Source: Candidatus Goldiibacteriota bacterium HGW-Goldbacteria-1
GTDB taxonomy: Bacteria; Oederibacteriota; PGYV01
Assembly: GCA_002839855.1 (NCBI GenBank)
Contig: PGYV01000008.1
Coordinates: forward strand, 62,001-126,000
Direction of reading: 5' to 3'
Length of the DNA stretch: 64,000 nucleotides
Positions 2,268 to 47,445 of the stretch are shown piece after piece. Position numbers and translations under genes: made by a program. The notes below the pieces were generated by a model. That model did not search any database and was not told the origin of the DNA. It was given only the letters and a program-made list of their open reading frames with translations. How positions within the stretch are numbered: the stretch's first letter is position 1; every line of letters begins with the position of its first letter.

Positions 2268-3191
2268 ATGAAGTATTTTATTTATCTGTTGTTTATGGCG
2301 GTTTCAGTTTTTGCCGGGGTTATGCTTTATAAATCCAATTCATTATACGGGATTATTACATTGTCCGGCGCGGCAGCCGCGGCCCTTATGATTATCGGGG
2401 ATATATTCCTGTCCGGTAAAGAGGCAAAAAAAGGGTCGGTTTATCCTAAATTACTTGATACCAGCGTAATTATTGACGGAAGAATCAAGGATATCTGCAG
2501 GGCCGGATTTCTGGAAGGCACACTTATCGCCCCGAAATTTGTGCTTCACGAACTTCAGTACATAGCTGATTCGTCGGACCACATGAAAAGAAGCAAGGGG
2601 CGCAGGGGGCTGGATATTTTAAATGACCTGCGCAAGATGCCAAGCGTCACGCTGGAAATAGTTGATAAAGACTATCCGCAGACAAGGGAAGTTGACCAGA
2701 AACTGGTATTAATGGCAAAAGAGACGGGCGCTAAAATTATTACTAACGATTATAACCTTAATAAAACCGCGGAGATTCAGGGCGTTAAGATTCTTAACAT
2801 TAACGACCTTTCCAATTCGGTAAAACCGTCTTTCCTTCCCGGTGAGCGCATAGGCGTGAAAATTATGAAGGAAGGAAAAGAAAAAGAACAGGGCATAGCA
2901 TACCTTACGGACGGCACGATGATAGTGGTTGATAACGCCAGAAAACTTCTTAATAAGAAGATAGATGTGGTGGTTACCAACGTATTGCAGACAGACGCCG
3001 GAAGGATGATATTTGCCAGATACGAACAGGGCGGCGACAGCCGTGAGAACCGCGGCGCGCGCGGATATTTTAAAAGGCCGTTCCGCCGTAATGACAGAAA
3101 CCAGAACCGTAATAACAATACTAACAGTACCACGCAGAGTGCGCCTGTAAGTGAAGCGCACAGTGAAGAACCAAAAAAGGAAAATGAATGA
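2268..3191 (+). CDS. Membrane-anchored PIN/TRAM domain protein (YacL-like)
   Basis: The 307-residue protein starts with two hydrophobic segments (about residues 1-20 and 28-48), followed by a PIN domain with the expected spaced acidic residues ([10 protein letters not shown] in [10 protein letters not shown] in EVDQKL, TNDYN) and a TRAM-type RNA-binding domain ([14 protein letters not shown]...GTMIVVDNA). The tail is rich in Arg, Asn and Ser and looks disordered. PIN domains are usually metal-dependent ribonucleases; YacL-type proteins are membrane-bound, and their exact substrate is not settled. ATG at 2268 follows a strong GGTGG ribosome site. The stop overlaps the start of ispD (ATGA). Confidence 0.9.
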
Positions 3192-6703: not shown

Positions 6704-6724
6704 TAGAAAAATAGATAGAAAAGA

Positions 6725-6760
6725 TCTGGTAGACGCGGGTCTTTAGCCCGCGGCAGTTGA
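6725..6760 (+). repeat. C-type hairpin repeat, GCGGG version
   Basis: This copy has the flanks tctggtaga and ggcagttga with stem CGCGGG/CCCGCG around a TCTTTAG loop. It lies between tRNA-Thr and tRNA-Tyr. A further copy lies at 7077-7110. There is no T-run after it, so it does not look like an ordinary terminator. Confidence 0.85.
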
Positions 6761-6814
6761 TTTAAAGATACAGAGAATTGTTCTTAAAAAGATAAAGAGA
6801 TGATATGAAATAGT

Positions 6815-7069: not shown

Positions 7070-7076
7070 TAAAGAC

Positions 7077-7163
7077 TTGGTAGACGCGGGTCTTTAGCCC
7101 GCGGCAGTTGAAGTTGAAATAATAGCAAATTAAGCTATAGGCAGTTAAGCATAAGCGAAATAT
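7077..7163 (+). repeat. C-type hairpin followed by A-type words
   Basis: A C-type hairpin (GCGGG stem, flanks ttggtagac and ggcagttga) occupies 7077-7110. It is followed at about 7127-7163 by an A-type word with the ttaagctataggcagttaag pattern. The order here is C then A, the opposite of the composite copies, so the two words can move or be copied separately. Confidence 0.8.
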
Positions 7164-7368: not shown

Positions 7369-7445
7369 GGGGGTGTAGCTCAGTTGGTTAGAGCGTCTGC
7401 CTGTCACGCAGAAGGTCGCGAGTTCGAGCCTCGTCACTCCCGCCA
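7369..7445 (+). tRNA. tRNA-Asp (GTC)
   Basis: Acceptor stem GGGGGTG/CACTCCC with one G-T pair, discriminator G, encoded CCA. The anticodon stem TCTGC/GCAGA holds loop ctgtcac, anticodon GTC. It is the last gene of the tRNA group and is followed by a strong terminator. Confidence 0.97.
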
Positions 7446-7480: not shown

Positions 7481-7536
7481 TTTTATGGCAGAGAATCGAC
7501 AATCGATAATTGAGAAATATAATACAAAGTCAATTC

Positions 7537-7790
7537 GGGCGATTCTCGATTCTCGATTTTCAGCAGTTAGCCGGCCTTGTCGTAGAGAATCGAGAAATAA
7601 GGCATGGATATAGAATCGCGCCGGAAGGCGAGCATTGACGGGCAATTCTCGATTCTCGATTTTCGGCAGTTAGCCGGCCTTATGGCAAAGAATAGAGAAA
7701 ACGATAATCGATAAATAAGGCATGGATATAGAATCGCGCCGGAAGGCGAGCATTGACGTACAATTCTCGATTCTCGATTTTCGGTGTTTG
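7537..7790 (+). repeat. Tandem repeat of ~110 bp units containing 'attctcgattctcg'
   Basis: Two and a part units are visible, starting near 7537, 7639 and 7758. Each unit runs from attctcgattctcgattttc through cagttagccggcctt to aaggcatggatatagaatcg and a ccggaaggcgagcattgacg end. The words gagaatcgag and ctcgattctc face each other, so each unit can fold. Similar words (tttctcgattttcgattatc) recur at about 13467. The gap from 7446 to 7833 holds only the terminator and this array. Confidence 0.85.
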
Positions 7791-7833: not shown

Positions 7834-8190
7834 ATGCCGTTTTTATTTGAAAATCTTGATGTTTACAATCAGTCTATGCAGCTTGCCGATGAACTTACCA
7901 GTGTTACCGAGACGTTTTCTAAGGGTAAATATTATCTTAAAGACCAATCAAACCGTGCCGCGTTATCTGTACCAAATAATATTGCGGAAGGCAATGGCAG
8001 GTTCACTAAGAACGACAAAACGCATTTTTTTCACATAGCCAGGGGCTCGGCTTTTGAATGTGTTTCTATATTAGAACTGTGTAAAAGAAAAAAATTAATC
8101 AGCGATGCAAAAAATCAGGAATATAAAAGCCGGATTGATAACGTATGCCGGATGATATCGGGATTGATAAAAAGCCAAGATAAAAGGTAA
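7834..8190 (+). CDS. Four-helix-bundle protein of the 23S rRNA intervening-sequence (S23) family
   Basis: The 118-residue protein carries the family marks: a start with FENLDVYNQSMQLADEL, the central PNNIAEGNGR motif and the helix ARGSAFECVSILELC. Such proteins were first found inside intervening sequences of 23S rRNA genes, but most lie elsewhere and their function is unknown. The start is ATG 7834, behind the GGGAGGGG ribosome site at about 7822-7829; an in-frame upstream ATG at 7753 would translate the repeat array and is rejected. It sits directly downstream of a tandem repeat array with no rRNA nearby. Confidence 0.88.
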   Translation: MPFLFENLDVYNQSMQLADELTSVTETFSKGKYYLKDQSNRAALSVPNNIAEGNGRFTKNDKTHFFHIARGSAFECVSILELCKRKKLISDAKNQEYKSRIDNVCRMISGLIKSQDKR

Positions 8191-8210
8191 TTAAATAGGC
8201 TTTTTGTTTT
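8169..8210 (+). terminator. Possible terminator overlapping the gene end
   Basis: The arms AAAAAGCC (8169-8176) and GGCTTTTT (8198-8205), followed by gttttt, form a hairpin with a loop of about 21 nt. The left arm lies inside the last codons of the four-helix-bundle gene. The large loop makes it a moderate candidate. Confidence 0.5.
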
Positions 8211-8216
8211 TATACG

Positions 8217-8345
8217 GTGTTGAGTCTCGAAGATAAATTCCGCACTGCCGTAAGGTAGAAAAACTAAATAGTGTCAGCGGAATTTCAGAGGGCATGCGCA
8301 GCAAATTTTAGGCGAAAATTTGCGTAGTAGGCAAGCCTTGTTACT
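8217..8345 (+). repeat. Structured island repeat F, copy 1
   Basis: The copy contains the inverted pair AAATTCCGC ... GCGGAATTT. It aligns with a second copy at 9635-9735 in the same orientation, with the shared words gaagataaattccgc and gtcagcggaatttcag. Downstream of it lies a separate perfect hairpin, GCAAATTTT/AAAATTTGC with a 5-nt loop at about 8308-8330. The two copies bracket the gene at 8461-9501. Confidence 0.8.
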
Positions 8346-8426
8346 TCTGCCAGGTAAAAAGCCTGTTCGTTTTGTAGATGGTTTATTTTTGATGGTTTTT
8401 AAGATTCAAAATGAGTTATCTTTCTA

Positions 8427-8454
8427 TTGCCTTTGCTTTACTTGGTGGTAAAAT
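8427..8454 (+). promoter_or_regulatory. Promoter TTGCCT-16-TAAAAT, leaderless arrangement
   Basis: TTGCCT (8427-8432) and TAAAAT (8449-8454) are separated by 16 bp, and GG precedes the -10 box as in other island promoters. The ATG of the next gene begins only seven bases after the -10 box, so the transcript should start at or next to the start codon. No ribosome site is visible. Confidence 0.6.
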
Positions 8455-8460
8455 GAAACT

Positions 8461-9501
8461 ATGATAAAAAAAGCGGAAATGTTAAAAAGTGGTAGCATAT
8501 ATAAATATAACTTCGGTCTGCTATTTTTATTTTTAACTTTAATTTTAAGTGCTTTTTCTGGTGCTGCTACATTAACAATTTCTGTAAGTCTTCCGGATGG
8601 AAAACCGGTTCAAAACGCTGAAGTAATTTTAGAGCGTATTTATCCTCCTGAAAGTGAGATTAAGATAGGTAAGACAAACTCCCAAGGTAGAACTAAAGTC
8701 CGATTTGATGATAATGATTCGGCTAAATCAAATAGGGGGTATGGAATACTTCAATTTGCGGTTATTAAAGAAGATTACCGGTGGGAAAAGTCACCGATTT
8801 ATATTTGGGAAAAAGATAAAAGTTGGCAAGATAAAATGTCGAAAGAAATTGGTAGAGAAAGAGAGCATTTGGTGGTTGAAATGAAAGATGAAATACAGTG
8901 GGATGTTAAACTGAGTAGAGCGGTTAAAAAAATCATTACAATAGCCGATGAGACAGGAAACCCAATAAAAAAATGTAAGATGCAATTAAGAAAAGATTTT
9001 TTTGATGATCTTTCTGGGGAATGGATGAATTTCACGTCTCCTGTTATTTATGAAACGGATGATAATGGCGAGTTTGCGGTAAACTCCGAATATGGACGAA
9101 ACTATAATCTTTCTGCGGAAGATGATGAATATATTAGTGAAAGCAATAGATATACAACGATACAAGGAATAAATTTTTTATTTAGTCCGCAGGTTGAATT
9201 ACTTAAATTTGTTTTCGTAGAGAATCATAAAGAAAAATTAAATGTATTTGTCAGAGAGGATGATACAAAAAAACCTATCAGGGATGCTCGGATATGCCTA
9301 AAGACAAGTTATGGTGATTGGGTTTCAACTACTTGTGTTGCTAAAACAAATGATGAAGGGATTTCAACCCCTGTTGATTTTTACCCCAAAAAAACAAAGA
9401 TGATAGGGGTAACTGCTGATGAATATCAAGAACAATGGATCGATGCGGAGCGTTTTTCTTCTGATACCCCAATTGAATTTAAACTTAAGAAAATTAAGTA
9501 G
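8461..9501 (+). CDS. Exported protein with carboxypeptidase-regulatory-like / Ig-like repeats, unknown function
   Basis: The 346-residue protein has an N-terminal hydrophobic segment (about residues 17-36, FGLLFLFLTLILSAFSGA) that looks like a signal peptide or anchor. The rest is built of beta-rich modules of the carboxypeptidase-regulatory type: VSLPDGKPVQNAEVILER, IADETGNPIKKCKMQLRK, and VREDDTKKPIRDARICLK, each with a later NSQGRTKV- or NDEGISTP-like turn. Such modules are common in surface and envelope proteins and give no specific function. The gene is clearly more AT-rich than the core operons. It has its own promoter directly at the start codon. It is bracketed by two copies of structured repeat F. 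Confidence 0.7.
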   Translation: MIKKAEMLKSGSIYKYNFGLLFLFLTLILSAFSGAATLTISVSLPDGKPVQNAEVILERIYPPESEIKIGKTNSQGRTKVRFDDNDSAKSNRGYGILQFAVIKEDYRWEKSPIYIWEKDKSWQDKMSKEIGREREHLVVEMKDEIQWDVKLSRAVKKIITIADETGNPIKKCKMQLRKDFFDDLSGEWMNFTSPVIYETDDNGEFAVNSEYGRNYNLSAEDDEYISESNRYTTIQGINFLFSPQVELLKFVFVENHKEKLNVFVREDDTKKPIRDARICLKTSYGDWVSTTCVAKTNDEGISTPVDFYPKKTKMIGVTADEYQEQWIDAERFSSDTPIEFKLKKIK

Positions 9502-9634
9502 TAGTTTACTAAAGTGATTTGCGTATACCTGATATATTAGAAAGAGAACTAAATAACATTCCGGGTTTTTCTGTTAATAGCCAATCTTTATGTACTTTAC
9601 AACAACATGTAAATTGCTAGAGTTTATTCTTATA

Positions 9635-9735
9635 TGGTATTGAGGCTTGAAGAGAAATTCCGCGCTTACTAAACGTTAGAAAAGCGGAACAGCGTCAGCG
9701 GAATTTCAGCGGACTTGCGGAGTCAAAAACATAAA
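9635..9735 (+). repeat. Structured island repeat F, copy 2
   Basis: This is the second copy of the 8217 repeat, with the same AAATTCCGC/GCGGAATTT inverted pair. Its right end (ggaatttcagcggacttgcgg) resembles the left core of the island repeats at 43426 and 45288, including a small hairpin with a TGC-type loop. Confidence 0.75.
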
Positions 9736-9771
9736 ATATAAATGTTTGTGGTAATTGGTAAATGAGGCTTT

Positions 9772-10602
9772 TTAGTCTGTTAAAAATTCCACGTTTGTCT
9801 TTAGTATCTCTTCTGCGAGATTTTTATCCGGTGTATTAGTATTAAATAAATGGAATTTACTAAAATATTCATCAAGAGTCTTTTCTATGGTTTTTCCTTC
9901 CTGACAATCGCCGCATTCGGACAATGAAAGGTAAGGTTGGCATGGACATTTGATTTTGTTATATATGCGTGCCCTATAGTTGTCTCTATAATAATTGTCA
10001 ATATCAGCAAAGTGTTCTGCGAAATATTCTTTTGTATTCTTAATATTTTCTTTTTTCCTCAGTGATTTAATATTTGCTTTTATAACCTTATTGATATAGT
10101 TGTCGATGTTTTTTGGTATTGTGCCGGAAGCGTGAAGTTGTACTCTTGCGTCAACGCCTATAATAACAATGCCGGGTTGTTCTTCGATTTTAAACTGTTT
10201 TGTTAACGTTTTGTTATTATCCGAATAAAAAACAAAATCCAAATCATTTCTATCCAGAAAAGTTTTGATTAAATCTTTGTAGTCCTGTGAAATCAGGATG
10301 AATTTCACGGGTTTTTTATTGTAGCGAACTTTAATGGCTTGTATTTTTTTCAAAAAAGGCGCGGAGGTGAAGTTTTGTGTGCCGGCAAAACAAAATATTA
10401 GTGTTTCTTTGCCGACTTCTTCCGAAAGTAAGAAAATATTATTATCACTTGTTTTGATTTTAAAATTCGGTGCGACCTGGCCGATAAAATTTGCTGTGTC
10501 GAGGTTATAATGTCTTTGTTTAATATTTTCCGCGGAAGCAAAGCTGAAAAATAAAACGAAAAAGAAACATAATTTACAGAAATTTAATTTTTTTATATTC
10601 AT
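9772..10602 (-). CDS. Exported redoxin-fold protein with C-terminal cysteine cluster
   Basis: The 276-residue product begins with a signal peptide (FCKLCFFFVLFFSFASAE). Residues 40-160 resemble the AhpC/TSA and TlpA-like thioredoxin fold: GQVAPNFKIKTSDNN, LIFCFAGTQNFTSAPFLKK, and EEQPGIVIIGVDARVQLHASG. Where active redoxins carry Cys or CxxC, this protein reads AGTQNFTS, so the usual redox cysteines are missing. The C-terminal part has a cluster CPCQ...CGDC that resembles metal- or haem-handling CcmH-like motifs. Its function is unknown; a chaperone or electron-transfer role would be a guess. The gene runs opposite to its neighbours, is AT-rich, and shows no ribosome site before the ATG. Confidence 0.7.
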   Translation of the reverse strand: MNIKKLNFCKLCFFFVLFFSFASAENIKQRHYNLDTANFIGQVAPNFKIKTSDNNIFLLSEEVGKETLIFCFAGTQNFTSAPFLKKIQAIKVRYNKKPVKFILISQDYKDLIKTFLDRNDLDFVFYSDNNKTLTKQFKIEEQPGIVIIGVDARVQLHASGTIPKNIDNYINKVIKANIKSLRKKENIKNTKEYFAEHFADIDNYYRDNYRARIYNKIKCPCQPYLSLSECGDCQEGKTIEKTLDEYFSKFHLFNTNTPDKNLAEEILKTNVEFLTD

Positions 10603-12426: not shown

Positions 12427-12561
12427 AAAAATATAGGGATGTACCTTGAGTCAGAAGCATAGAAACACTAAATTCCGTAAACTCTCAACTAGAGGTTCGT
12501 TCTTGAAAGTCCCCATAACTTTATATAAATATATTTAATGTTTTTGCGAAAAGGAGCCGGA

Positions 12562-13356
12562 ATGGGAAAAGGCGGTTTTAAGAACACGGTATCATTTACT
12601 ATTAATGCTTTTTTGGAAATGGTTAAAAAGCATAAGAAACAAATTATCATTTTGATAGTTGTTTTGTTCGCTTTTATTGCCGTCAAAAATTATATATTCA
12701 GAGATTCAATAGATAACAGGCTGGGATACCGTTATGAGGATATTGATGGAGATGGTATCAGAAACATGGACGACCCTGATGTTGACGGCGACGGGATTGC
12801 CAATATGCAGGACGCGGACGCGGATGGTGATGGGATAGCGAATCTTGAGGATACGCTGAAAGCCGCGGAAGGTTTAGTGGGCATACCGTATGATTTTAAT
12901 ATGGGTAAGTTTTTTAATATAGGGTGGCGGACAGGGAAAATTGTATGTATAGACGTGATAAACTTGTCGCTGGAAAAAGCCGGATTATATATGGAAAAGG
13001 AAATGAGGGAATTTTATAAAATGAATCCCGGTGCGTTTTCCAACAGAAACGGAGACAAACCGAAAAACGCGTTCTTTGCCAGAAGGGTAAAAAATTTAAG
13101 GGAATTCTGCGTGGCAAGCGGCTGGGTTCTTCCTGAAAACCCGCGGATAATGCCCGGGGATATAGTCATATTCAGCATATATCACACCGCTATGGTGGAT
13201 GAAATAAGAGAAAAGGGTTACTACGCGATAGAAACCGAACAAAGGCTTATAACAACCAAAAAAGTATCAAGTGAGGATATGTTAGCAAGGCACAGTAATC
13301 CCATATATGTCCGTTTGCCGTTTTTTACGGCAAACGAAGGTATGGGGAAGAAGTGA
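12562..13356 (+). CDS. Membrane-anchored protein with thrombospondin-3-like calcium repeats and a DUF1287-like peptidase domain
   Basis: The 264-residue protein has a single N-terminal membrane segment (IIILIVVLFAFIAV). Next come three short Asp-rich calcium-binding repeats (DIDGDGIRNMDDPDVDGDG and similar), the thrombospondin type 3 pattern that often forms a spacer outside the membrane. The C-terminal 150 residues resemble DUF1287, a branch of the NlpC/P60 superfamily: VCIDVINLSLEKAG holds the candidate catalytic Cys, RRVKNLREF is a family-like motif, and IYHTAMVDEI holds the His. A role in cell-wall peptide cleavage is therefore inferred. The start is ATG 12562 with AAGGAG five bases upstream; an in-frame ATG at 12538 is less well placed. 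Confidence 0.7.
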   Translation: MGKGGFKNTVSFTINAFLEMVKKHKKQIIILIVVLFAFIAVKNYIFRDSIDNRLGYRYEDIDGDGIRNMDDPDVDGDGIANMQDADADGDGIANLEDTLKAAEGLVGIPYDFNMGKFFNIGWRTGKIVCIDVINLSLEKAGLYMEKEMREFYKMNPGAFSNRNGDKPKNAFFARRVKNLREFCVASGWVLPENPRIMPGDIVIFSIYHTAMVDEIREKGYYAIETEQRLITTKKVSSEDMLARHSNPIYVRLPFFTANEGMGKK

Positions 13357-22494: not shown

Positions 22495-23003
22495 TATTGC
22501 CTCCCTTAAATTTTTAATTACCCCTATAATTATGTATATCCGATAAACGCGACAAAGTCAATTTTATGGCAGAAAAGGCGTTTAACTCCGGTTGAATTGT
22601 TATAGAGGTGTGATATATTAACTGAAGCAGCACGGTTGGATGCTTGGAAGGTTAGATGCTTAGAGGCTTGGTAAAGCGGCGGTTTGACGGCTCAGAAGGT
22701 TGGGAAGAGCGGGTTAAGCTATAGGCAATTAAGCATAAGCGGAAATATTCAAACATAACGAATTAAGCTATAAGCAGTTAAGCTATAGCGAAAAAGTTTA
22801 AACATAACGAGTTAAGCTATAAGCAGTTAGGCATAAGCGGAATACAAAAAAGCAGCTCGGCGGCTCAGCGGCTCGGTTTAGATCTGGTAGGCGCGGGTCT
22901 TTAGCCCGCGGCAGTTTATTTAAAAAGAGCTGATAAATTATAAGCGGAAAGATGGCGGCTTGGAACACCGGAAAATAAAATATTACTTATCTGGAGGGTG
23001 TTA
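22495..23003. repeat. Intergenic block of B-, A- and C-type repeats
   Basis: There is no gene in this 509-bp gap. B-type words (ttggatgcttggaaggttag and similar) lie at about 22634-22700, three A-type words at about 22714-22840, and one C-type hairpin of the GCGGG version at 22883-22917. The ribosome site of the next gene is at 22993-22997. Confidence 0.85.
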
Positions 23004-26479: not shown

Positions 26480-26884
26480 TAATAGAAGCTTGGATGGTTA
26501 GATGCTTGGAAGCTTGGTAAGAGAGAGACTATAAGCAGATAAGCATTAGGCAGTTAAGCATAAGCGGAAGGCTAAAAGAGCAAGTTTCGCTATAGCTTAA
26601 TTGCTTAAACTGTTAAAGAGCTATGTTTTGTAATGGTAGACGCGGGTCTTTAGCCCGCGGCAGTTGATTTATATTTAATTTTTTTACGAGAGAAAGCAGA
26701 AGGGACAGTGATAATAAAAGCGTATTAAGTTATAAGCAGAGGCAATAGCGTAAAAGTTGCAGCGCAGAGGCTCCGCAATTCGGATATTTTATAATAATTC
26801 AACTGCAGCACCCTGAAGGGTGCGCCTACCAGATCTATACCAAACCTCCAAGCGTCCAAGCCTCCGTATTTCCGCATATTTACG
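26480..26884. repeat. Intergenic block with composite A+C repeat and inverted C-type copy
   Basis: There is no gene here. B-type words lie at about 26489-26520, and A-type words with their inverted partner at about 26525-26620. A C-type hairpin of the GCGGG version follows at 26634-26668, and a C-type hairpin in reverse direction with a GCACCC stem at 26801-26835. A short inverted B-type word is at about 26840-26868. Confidence 0.85.
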
Positions 26885-42264: not shown

Positions 42265-42554
42265 TCCCTGGTAGCTCAGTCGGTAGAGCATGTGGCTGTA
42301 CACGCGGCGCGTAAGCGCCGAAATTAGCAGCCCTCATCGGAAACGTTGAGGTGAAAAGCGGGTAAATTCAGGGAAACCCCTATGGGGCAATCCTGAGCCA
42401 AGCCTTGAACTGAAAAGTTCATTGAAGGTGCAGAGACTAGACACCCGCCGCCTAAAGCAGAAATGCCATGGTGATGGTATAGTCCGACTCTCCAAGTAAT
42501 TGGAGTCAGATCGTAACCACAGTGTCGCAGGTTCGAGTCCTGCCCGGGGAGCCA
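42265..42554 (+). tRNA. tRNA-Asn (GTT) interrupted by a group I intron
   Basis: The exons are 42265-42299 and 42514-42554. Joined, they give a regular cloverleaf: acceptor TCCCTGG/CCGGGGA, D-arm, anticodon stem TGTGG/CCACA, loop CTGTTAA with anticodon GTT, a 5-nt variable loop, T-stem GCAGG/CCTGC, discriminator G and encoded CCA. The short variable loop excludes tRNA-Tyr, which a naive reading of CTGTA would suggest. The intron splits the anticodon between its second and third base (GT^T). A terminator follows at 42561. Confidence 0.93.
42300..42513 (+). mobile_element. Group I intron (214 nt) in tRNA-Asn
   Basis: A full group I core can be drawn. P1 pairs exon GGCTGT (42294-42299) with internal guide GCAGCC (42327-42332), putting the required T-G pair at the 5' splice site. 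P2 is CCTCA/TGAGG. P3 is GCGGGT (42358-42363) with ACCCGC (42443-42448). P4 is TCAGG/CCTGA, P5 CCCC/GGGG and P6a GAAC/GTTC. P7 is GACTA (42435-42439) with TAGTC (42480-42484). P8 is TGCCAT/ATGGTA, and P9 is TCCAA/TTGGA with a GTAA loop. The last intron base is G (42513). The P1 extension has a GTAA loop too. It resembles the small IC3-type introns of bacterial tRNA genes. No open frame inside, so no homing endonuclease. Confidence 0.92.
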
Positions 42555-42607: not shown

Positions 42608-42647
42608 TGCCGGGCAGGACTTGAGTCTTGCAATATTTGGTATGTTT
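42608..42647. other. Inverted partial copy of the tRNA-Asn 3' end
   Basis: The stretch ccgggcaggact (from about 42611) equals the reverse complement of tRNA-Asn AGTCCTGCCCGG. The following bases (tgagtcttgc) still resemble the T-arm. It is a degraded inverted copy of the tRNA 3' part, just after the terminator. Confidence 0.55.
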
Positions 42648-42687
42648 TTTTACCCCATACCCCGATTGTCTTCTCGCATCTTTTTCC

Positions 42688-42715
42688 TTGTTAATTGAAA
42701 GAGAGGTGATAAAAT
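42688..42715 (+). promoter_or_regulatory. Island promoter TTGTTA-16-TAAAAT (block copy 1)
   Basis: TTGTTA at 42688-42693 and TAAAAT at 42710-42715 have a 16-bp spacer. The surrounding block, about 42648-42715 with ttaccccataccccgattg and cttctcgcat, is nearly the same as 43551-43617 before the lipoprotein gene. Confidence 0.7.
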
Positions 42716-43407: not shown

Positions 43408-43535
43408 CCCGGGAAGGACTCGGATGGAATCTGCCGCGTCCTGCGGACGAAAAGCGCGCGGGAGCGCGCAACAGGCAGATTCCGGGGGTCGACGAGCCGC
43501 AGGTAACGGTGAGGTGCCCGAGTCCTGCCCGAGGG
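43408..43535 (+). repeat. Structured island repeat E, copy 1
   Basis: A 128-bp element closed by an outer inverted pair (43408-43423 with 43518-43533, CCGAGTCCT type). Inside lie an arm GGAATCTGCC (43426-43435) with GGCAGATTCC (43474-43483) that encloses two hairpins, CGTCC-TGC-GGACG and GCGCGC-GGGA-GCGCGC, and a third hairpin GCCGC-AGGTA-ACGGT. The outer right arm repeats the tRNA-Asn word GAGTCCTGCCCG. A related copy lies at 45272. Confidence 0.85.
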
Positions 43536-43589
43536 AATTTAGCTGGCCTTTTTACCCCATACCTCGATTGTCTTCTCGCATTTTTTTCC

Positions 43590-43617
43590 TTGTCAATAGA
43601 AGCAAGAGTGATAAAAT
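43590..43617 (+). promoter_or_regulatory. Island promoter TTGTCA-16-TAAAAT (block copy 2)
   Basis: TTGTCA at 43590-43595 and TAAAAT at 43612-43617 are 16 bp apart, 33 bp before the lipoprotein start. The block from about 43551 is a near copy of 42648-42715. Confidence 0.75.
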
Positions 43618-45271: not shown

Positions 45272-45410
45272 CGCGCAGGACTAAAATGGAATTTGCCGCG
45301 TCCTGCGGACGAAAAGCGCGAGAGCGCGCGACAGGCAGATGAGGGCTATAGTGCCCGGAGGGTAGGTCGATGAGCCGCAGGTAGCGGCGAGGTGACCGAG
45401 TCCGTGCGTG
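45272..45410 (+). repeat. Structured island repeat E, copy 2
   Basis: This copy keeps the CGTCC-TGC-GGACG hairpin, a GCGC hairpin now with a GAGA loop, and a perfect GCCGC-AGGTA-GCGGC hairpin. The enclosing arm is GGAATTTGCC with the partly matching GGCAGAT. The outer arms gcgcaggact and agtccgtgcg still pair with one bulge. About 15 bp are inserted in the right part relative to copy 1. The 307-bp gap 45161-45467 holds only this repeat and the next promoter. Confidence 0.82.
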
Positions 45411-45421
45411 TTTAATCGCTC

Positions 45422-46791: not shown

Positions 46792-47445
46792 ATGAAAAAA
46801 ATTAAGGTGTGTAAAGATGGGCCTTATCTGGTATCTGGGAATATTCCTTTGGATAAAAGTATCGCGGAAATTGGGGAGTCTGATGAGCCGGAATTCTGGA
46901 TAAAAAAGGAAGATTATAAAACGAAAGAAAACTACTCTTTATGCCGGTGTGGGCATACCAAGAATCCGCCTTTCTGTGACGGGGCTCATAACGAAAAAAA
47001 GTTTAACGGTAAAGAGACCGCTGAGTTTAAGACTTTTGAAGAAATGGCAAAAACTTATAAAGGCCCGGATTTGGATTTGAAAGACGCGGAAGTGTTCTGC
47101 GCGTCTGCGCGTTTTTGCCACCCAAAAGGCGGCACGTGGCATTTAACTAAAAAGTCCAATGATCCTGAATCAAAAAAAATAGCCATTGAACAGGCGTGCA
47201 ATTGTTCCGCGGGCAGGCTTGTGGCTTATGACAAAAAGACAGGAAAGCCGATAGAACCTGACTTTAAACCTCATATCAGCGCCACCGAAGACCCGCAGGC
47301 GGATGTAAGCGGGCCGCTTTGGGTTAAAGGCGGTATTCCAATAGAGTCAGCCGAAGGTAAAACATACGAGATAAGAAACCGCGTCACATTATGCCGCTGC
47401 GGAAAATCCAAGAACAAGCCTTTTTGTGACGGCAGGCATATGTAG
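46792..47445 (+). CDS. Double CDGSH iron-sulfur protein
   Basis: The 217-residue protein has two CDGSH-type 2Fe-2S sites with the CxCx...CDGxH pattern: LCRCGHTKNPPFCDGAH at about 49-65 and LCRCGKSKNKPFCDGRH near the C-terminus. Between them lies a Cys-containing domain (FCASARFCHPKGGTWH ... ACNCSAGRLVAYD) that is common in bacterial relatives and may bind a further metal site. CDGSH clusters are redox-active; a role in electron transfer or iron handling is likely but not proven. It has its own promoter; the aquaporin gene follows 70 bp later. Confidence 0.92.
   Translation: MKKIKVCKDGPYLVSGNIPLDKSIAEIGESDEPEFWIKKEDYKTKENYSLCRCGHTKNPPFCDGAHNEKKFNGKETAEFKTFEEMAKTYKGPDLDLKDAEVFCASARFCHPKGGTWHLTKKSNDPESKKIAIEQACNCSAGRLVAYDKKTGKPIEPDFKPHISATEDPQADVSGPLWVKGGIPIESAEGKTYEIRNRVTLCRCGKSKNKPFCDGRHM

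Follow-up and report, generated by a model that had tools for sequence, protein, structure and literature searches.

The window, a stretch of 64,000 nucleotides from the genome of Candidatus Goldiibacteriota bacterium HGW-Goldbacteria-1, carries two islands of genes and short structured elements behind tRNA genes (Table 1). Behind tRNA-Asp the order is an IVP gene, element A1, an ORF with weak Ig-like similarity, element A2, then a thioredoxin-like gene in the opposite orientation and a gene with MORN repeats. The second island, with elements B1 and B2, lies behind an intron-containing tRNA-Asn gene. We refer to the genome of the window as G000 and to two other species of the same genus as G001 and G002.

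A sequence-only reading of the window had placed a direct repeat pair at 8217 and 9635, on either side of the ORF, in an AT-rich island. The pair exists: blastn aligns approximately 8203–8305 with 9623–9727 at 77% identity over 105 nt (E 9e-14 with the window as the scope, 9e-15 with the whole genome). The ORF indeed lies between the copies, and the stretch has 34% GC versus about 42–45% nearby. The stem pair AAATTCCGC/GCGGAATTT is also present as described in both copies, at 8235–8243/8277–8285 in A1 and at 9655–9663/9698–9706 in A2. The places were right, but according to covariance model R2 both copies reach further than had been proposed (Table 1).

Table 1. Features of the tRNA-Asp and tRNA-Asn islands in the window
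Feature	Position	Strand	Evidence
tRNA-Asp(GTC), host of the A elements; final gene in a cluster of five tRNAs	7369..7445	+	ARAGORN
23S rRNA IVP-family gene (PF05635), between tRNA-Asp and A1	7834..8190	+	
Remnant of the tRNA-Asp terminator (right half), precedes the A1 left arm	8198..8217	+	8198–8243 matches G001 directly behind tRNA-Asp (L068 38–83), 96% over 46 nt
Element A1, complete but decayed	8218..8352	+	R2 42.5 bits, E 5e-10
A1 left arm, copied from the T arm of tRNA-Asp in inverted orientation	8220..8231	+	9/12
A1 stem AAATTCCGC/GCGGAATTT with inner hairpin	8235..8285	+	
A1 right arm, copied from the final 21 nt of tRNA-Asp, decayed	8332..8352	+	16/21, all five changes transitions; best of 40 G000 tRNAs, next best 12
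ORF between A1 and A2; N-terminal hydrophobic stretch, weak Ig-like/bMG3 similarity	8461..9501	+	
Element A2, more decayed than A1	9638..9783	+	R2 36.6 bits, E 2e-8; R1 22.8 bits, E 8e-5
tRNA-Asn gene with group I intron, host gene of the B elements	42265..42554	+	Intron, Rfam 42290–42506; intron-free orthologue L077 6997–7072
Left-arm remnant behind the tRNA-Asn terminator	42614..42625	+	10/12
Element B1; right arm 15/21 to tRNA-Asn	43411..43539	+	R1/R2
Element B2; right arm decayed, 9/21	45273..45417	+	R1/R2

Covariance models and the fold of the element family

By blastn, A1 and A2 are each other's sole relatives in the genome, the next match being 26 nt long with E 6e-4, and B1 and B2 have no further genome copies. 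Comparison of the same loci in G001 and G002 revealed look-alike structures behind other tRNA genes. Covariance model R1 was built from five members (Val and Thr of G002, Met of G001, B1 and B2) and contains no A copy; it finds A2 at E 8e-5 in 190 kb of loci and has matches in 8 of 59 genomes. Model R2, with 30 members but without A1 and A2, detects both of them and has matches in 14 of 41 relatives; the search of these relatives used stricter filters, A1 was not among its matches, and the resulting census of the family is a lower bound.

Since R2 includes the tRNA-Ser(TGA) element of G001, to which A1 is identical at 132 of 167 positions, the membership of A1 follows from homology as well as from the fold. 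These two elements have the core and the style of terminator in common, while their arms are fitted to Asp and Ser, respectively. On these comparisons, the assignment of A1 and A2 to the family, and the link of the family to tRNA genes, are very probably correct.

The two local copies per island seen by blastn had first suggested a purely local duplication, which the covariance models overturned. More generally, chance similarity or a local tandem duplication without wider meaning would be consistent with only two A copies detectable by blastn, but we regard it as practically impossible in view of the covariance-model membership and the 40-odd relatives at tRNA genes; the R2 matches to A1 and A2 refute it. 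The models also relate the elements of the two islands to one another, a kinship that had been claimed from a 21-nt match. That match itself is out of register, pairing the 3′ strand of the A main stem with the 5′ strand of the B main stem, and a genome-wide search for GGAATTT(N10)TGCGGA gave two matches versus one for the reversed control pattern, as expected by chance.

Members of the family are structured elements of ~130 nt, with a closing helix and branched arms on the tRNA-sense strand. In the 30-sequence alignment, which was fitted to the R1 structure and thereby favours that fold, 87.5% of cells pair, and 29 of 33 pairs show changes on both sides. Compensatory cells number 182 versus 49.7 ± 5.6 in shuffles (0/500 reach 182), and sliding the partners by 1–3 columns as a control left 13–25. 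In the outermost helix, part of the covariation stems from the fact that its two strands are both copies of the tRNA; inner helices 3 to 7 covary too (6/7, 4/5, 6/6, 4/4 and 5/5 pairs).

Most cells that are neither Watson–Crick nor G-T are G-A or A-G (88/105), and these make up a CGAG/CGAG motif, for which pairing is possible on a single strand only. In DNA, tandem G-A pairs are stable. G-T pairs are scarce, with 13 among 738 standard pairs versus 142 among 2139 in 98 tRNAs of the same loci, and folding favours the tRNA-sense strand in 27 of 32 sequences under RNA energies and in 28 of 32 under DNA energies. We infer that the element probably acts in single-strand form, DNA being likelier than RNA.

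The strong covariation, always on the tRNA-sense strand, and the better folding of that strand with RNA energies would also suit a functional RNA of tRNA loci (a trailer or a processing or regulatory RNA) that is vertically inherited and whose arm copies serve folding. We consider this improbable. Terminators separate the tRNA from the element at Asn, Met, Asp and Gln, most tRNAs of a genome have no element, and sister species differ; together with the rarity of G-T pairs relative to tRNAs, these terminators and empty sites disfavour a plain functional-RNA reading. The curated models of Rfam 15 gave no relevant family match.

Location behind tRNA and tmRNA genes and origin of the arms

Of 43 R2 matches in the 41 relatives, 29 lie within 100 nt downstream of a same-strand tRNA called by ARAGORN, a placement with a random expectation of ~0.07%. 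The remaining 14 include B1, B2 and A2, which are situated further out in their islands; an element of G002 (C70) directly behind an intron-containing tRNA-Asn missed by ARAGORN; three further tandem copies behind tRNA-His of G003; one element 184 nt behind tRNA-Leu, one cut by a contig end (G005) and one without a tRNA (G017, 22 bits); and four with the core inside tRNA pseudogene copies (three Val, one Gln).

A scan that does not depend on tRNA calls, using a 24-nt core pattern and one genome for each of 84,980 GTDB species, gave 27 matches at 26 loci. The records belong to Omnitrophica/Omnitrophota, Goldiibacteriota, Firestonebacteria, FCPU426, Spirochaetales/Spirochaetaceae, Treponema, Deltaproteobacteria, Planctomycetota and UBA2219; they are mostly MAG contigs, for which single taxon names may be wrong. 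Several of these loci (L109, L116, L117, L118, L119, L122, L124) are apparently also matched by the models. A same-strand tRNA or tmRNA lies 40–101 nt upstream in 20 of the 27 matches, three of them with tmRNA (L107, L123, L126). The others are the second tandem unit of L108 (187 nt), L113 (150 nt), L118 (202 nt), L117 inside a tRNA-Gln pseudo-copy, L121, where no tRNA was found, and L125 and L127, which are cut at the locus end. The core pattern had 0 matches in IMG/VR, and phage records were matched by the query through its tRNA part only.

Judged from these placements, the common denominator of the family is the end of a tRNA or tmRNA gene, not AT-rich genes. It had been expected that each copy separates a single AT-rich gene; the seven copies found in the genome of the window sit instead at five tRNA loci.

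We compared the last 45 nt of the tRNA with the DNA behind it in the 19 covariance-model matches that have a tRNA. In 17 of them, the longest direct repeat begins at C56 of the T loop, precisely 21 nt from the 3′ end of the tRNA. Its length reaches 20 nt or more in 16; shorter exact matches are present for fMet and for Met of G002, and none for His. In the core-pattern set, a repeat of at least 18 nt from the C56 position occurs in 18 of 24 rows. Direct repeats span 21–60 nt, and for the short ones a target duplication is indistinguishable from a copy borne by the element. The upstream tRNA is intact beside the element.

When right arms were compared with 29 tRNA/tmRNA ends, the arm's own tRNA ranked first in 29 of 29 cases, in 22 uniquely; ties are the same tRNA from another species, fMet excepted. 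Mean identity to the own end is 20.1/21, versus about 12 for other tRNAs. The left arm represents that same end in reverse complement, with the own tRNA first, although often tied, in 26 of 29 (exceptions Val_G002, Ala_Delta and tmRNA_Spiro). tRNA-Arg(CCT) has an unusual T stem, GACG/CGTC, which its element mirrors. The fMet and His copies lack the full right arm.

In the window, the terminus of A1, CAAGCCTTGTTACTTCTGCCA, corresponds to a worn tRNA-Asp end, while windows sampled elsewhere across 7.5–13 kb do not exceed 12. For A2, the right arm agrees with the tRNA-Asp end in 10 of 21 positions and is not recognisable as a copy. In both islands the copy closer to the tRNA is the better preserved (A1 16/21 vs A2 10/21; B1 15/21 vs B2 9/21).

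Gene turnover in the islands and filled and empty sites

The DNA behind tRNA-Asp and tRNA-Asn is species-specific across the three species, in line with the gene gain and loss that had been anticipated. The region 8.3–12.4 kb of the window has no match in the tRNA-Asp locus of G001 or in the 13.7 kb seen behind tRNA-Asp of G002. In G001, the left half of an A element directly follows tRNA-Asp (L068 38–84), and different DNA, the conserved gene 12538–13356 and a further A copy (L068 ~3000–3077) are present. The island of G002 is different again and begins with a large serine recombinase (PF00239, PF07508, PF13408; L066 12331–13785). The 3′ ends of this gene and of tRNA-Asp overlap, an arrangement resembling that of dsiB and ssrA in Dehalococcoides. 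In the tRNA-Asn island, 42.7–43.3 and 43.65–45.2 kb are absent from G001 and G002, and the gene at 46792 is common to all three species. Gene turnover beside tRNA-Asp and tRNA-Asn is thus real; the elements may carry the island genes or may merely share a hot spot with them. No homologue of the ORF at 8461–9501 was found in 40 relatives or by the scan of GTDB contigs, and the ORF is best read as species-specific cargo or trapped DNA.

The elements had been taken for parts of a gene cassette system. Genes between elements do differ among species, but the elements are not separators of single genes. Folded recombination sites separating exchangeable cassettes, as in an integron-like system, would account for the different genes in both islands across three species and for a fold specific to one strand; nevertheless, most copies are geneless, nearly all lie at tRNAs, and no integron integrase was found among the ORFs near elements, so that we give this interpretation very little weight. 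ORFs between copies occur in this genome at tRNA-Asp and tRNA-Asn only, most family members in relatives have no gene within, and comparison of the ORFs of 32 element loci revealed no cassette-exchange enzyme.

Stand-alone IVP genes (PF05635) are repeatedly found shortly behind tRNAs (Asp, Met, Glu) in the genus (window 7834–8190, L069 7505–7834, L070 6272–6607, L071 732–1070), and a fragment of such a gene lies behind tRNA-Arg in L119/L216. For this position the IVP gene was considered as a partner of the element; it is present at few of the loci examined. An all-against-all ORF comparison in 32 loci gave no recurrent protein partner beyond the IVP gene in three.

Other repeats were also noted in the window. 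Tandem palindromic repeats (GAGAATCGAG.. / ..CTCGATTCTC) occupy 7536–7784, between tRNA-Asp and the IVP gene, and a second short hairpin repeat, GGTAGACGCGGGTCTTTAGCCCGCGGCAGTT, is found behind tRNAs and elsewhere (6720–6766, 7071–7111, 22880–22924, 26634–26671). The group I intron in tRNA-Asn(GTT) (RF00028, 82.5 bits) has its sequence also in G002, and the G001 gene is intron-free. Two unrelated ORFs of the tRNA-Asn island are preceded by 69-nt leaders that are 87% identical and have a promoter-like end (42647–42715 and 43549–43617); each leader directly follows an element or remnant.

Occupancy of tRNA sites differs among the three species. Arg(CCT), Thr and Val(TAC) are filled only in G002 and Pro(CGG) only in G001; elongator Met is filled in G001 and empty in G000, Gln(TTG) is filled in G002 and not in G000, and Met(CAT) is filled in G001 and G002 and empty in G000. 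At Arg(CCT) and Thr the duplication extends beyond the tRNA into the flank of the locus itself, by 23 and 21 nt, for totals of up to 44 and 42 nt. Stages of decay are also seen: the Ser(TGA) element is complete in G001, reduced to a bare left arm in G002 and gone in G000, and the fMet element keeps its left arm and the start of the core in all three species. Tandem units are seen in L105 and L108, where the direct repeats measure 69 and 101 nt, and behind tRNA-His of G003, which has four copies.

Proposed mechanism and comparison with known systems

We think it probable, on sequence grounds, that a non-autonomous mobile mini-element, which is linked to tRNA genes, inserts at their T loops and copies its target, gave rise to A1 and A2, both of which are now decayed. 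The element would insert behind tRNA or tmRNA genes. Comparison shows that its right end joins the tRNA 3′ end at the fixed position C56 and that the final 21 nt of the tRNA are then found in duplicate, in many cases together with as much as ~40 nt of the adjoining flank. The left arm is an inverted copy of that tRNA end, so that each copy is matched to its own tRNA. Movement may depend on an enzyme supplied in trans that uses the folded single strand (ssDNA or RNA), and the target is presumed to be copied during insertion. Such copying would account for a right junction that is precise, a left junction that varies and arms made from the target. With repeated insertion behind tRNA-Asp, older copies would be displaced outwards together with trapped DNA, the gene at 8461–9501 among it, which would give the stack observed in the window.

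The precise right and variable left junctions and the variable duplication with host flank resemble target-primed or fold-back copying, and with modest confidence we favour target copying by an enzyme in trans as the mechanism. We propose more tentatively, at somewhat less than even chances, a new class of mobile element: non-coding, folded as a single strand, hopping among tRNA/tmRNA genes in at least seven bacterial lineages, and remaking both arms, one direct and one inverted, from each target by a mechanism such as target-primed or fold-back synthesis. It should be noted that all of the evidence is comparative and that the genomes are mostly MAGs. The literature considered, which was mostly openly accessible and on which novelty in print cannot be claimed, held no description of such an element.

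Mobile elements normally have fixed ends and seek a site that matches them. In this family only the core is constant, and the ends are adapted to each target; one family can thereby live behind many tRNAs without breaking them. If true, this is a way of switching between safe landing sites that one dedicated integrase per tRNA does not explain, and an R2 match combined with a copy of the tRNA end provides a simple, testable marker for the first step of tRNA-island building in little-studied phyla.

Alternatively, ordinary site-specific integrases of the large serine or tyrosine type, recombining at tRNA/tmRNA T loops, could have left the elements as remnants of attachment sites or could move them as minimal cis-mobilisable islands, with the copy of the tRNA end borne by the element; we judge this unlikely, though clearly worth weighing. 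A crossover in the T loop, 20-bp gene-end repeats and tandem accretion are known for the Dehalococcoides ssrA islands and their CcrB-like serine recombinase (in the accessible part of PMC3146451), the attB site of phage Ms6 lies in a T loop (in the part of PMC1762012 available), and the G002 serine recombinase gene overlaps tRNA-Asp. In addition, 16 of 19 elements show the feature by which tDNA islands are judged, a direct repeat of the tRNA 3′ end at both ends, with a length of 20 nt or more. However, one conserved core serves many tRNAs and tmRNA, the element has an inverted target-matched arm and a conserved fold, and the repeats at Arg(CCT) and Thr include host flank outside the tRNA. Moreover, the 32 loci contain no recurrent recombinase, the single exception being that at tRNA-Asp of G002, where no second tRNA-Asp end was found within 20 kb.

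For the target-copying element that we prefer, stacking and the choice of the T loop look like those of the integrase islands as far as these are described in the accessible part of PMC3146451. The Dehalococcoides ssrA islands (DsiB serine recombinase) share T-loop insertion, a gene-end repeat of ~20 nt, tandem stacking and members without an integration module; they differ in being several kb long with genes and in using tmRNA only, and that part of the source describes neither a conserved folded core nor an inverted target-matched arm (PMC3146451). Islands and prophages of tyrosine integrases at tDNA (Islander, PMC4383910; Ms6, PMC1762012) are alike in the tRNA/tmRNA target, the T-loop site, the restored tRNA and the displaced 3′ fragment; as presented in the available parts of both sources, they have one integrase per target, whereas here one ~130-nt core occurs at more than 10 tRNAs and tmRNA with no integrase.

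MITEs and fold-back elements are similarly short and non-coding, with terminal inverted repeats and a target duplication. The element-specific terminal inverted repeats and the fixed short duplication of MITEs are not found here: the inverted arms belong to the target tRNA, and the duplication is long and variable (21–60 nt). Integron attC sites are folded as single strands. The elements resemble them in this respect and in the genes between copies in two islands, and differ in the tRNA target, the target-specific arms and the lack of an integron integrase among nearby ORFs. Transposons at tRNA ends are known from casposons. These share terminal inverted repeats and a target duplication with the present elements, but, according to the available part of PMC4046053, they are large and encode Cas1, in contrast to a ~130-nt non-coding element.

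The insertions in tRNA-Val and tRNA-Gln pseudogenes do not fit a simple T-loop model. In L231 (~1000–1450), L232 (~880–1010) and L237 (~510–720) the cores lie in tRNA pseudo-copies, each just upstream of an intact tRNA. The cores in tRNA-Val pseudogenes are situated between the anticodon arm and the T arm, near the variable loop, and that in the tRNA-Gln pseudo-copy is in the anticodon loop. Finally, G002 and G001 differ in where tRNA-Ser(CGA) and its element stand relative to Ala(CGC)-Ser(GGA) (L092, L093), as if the two had moved together.
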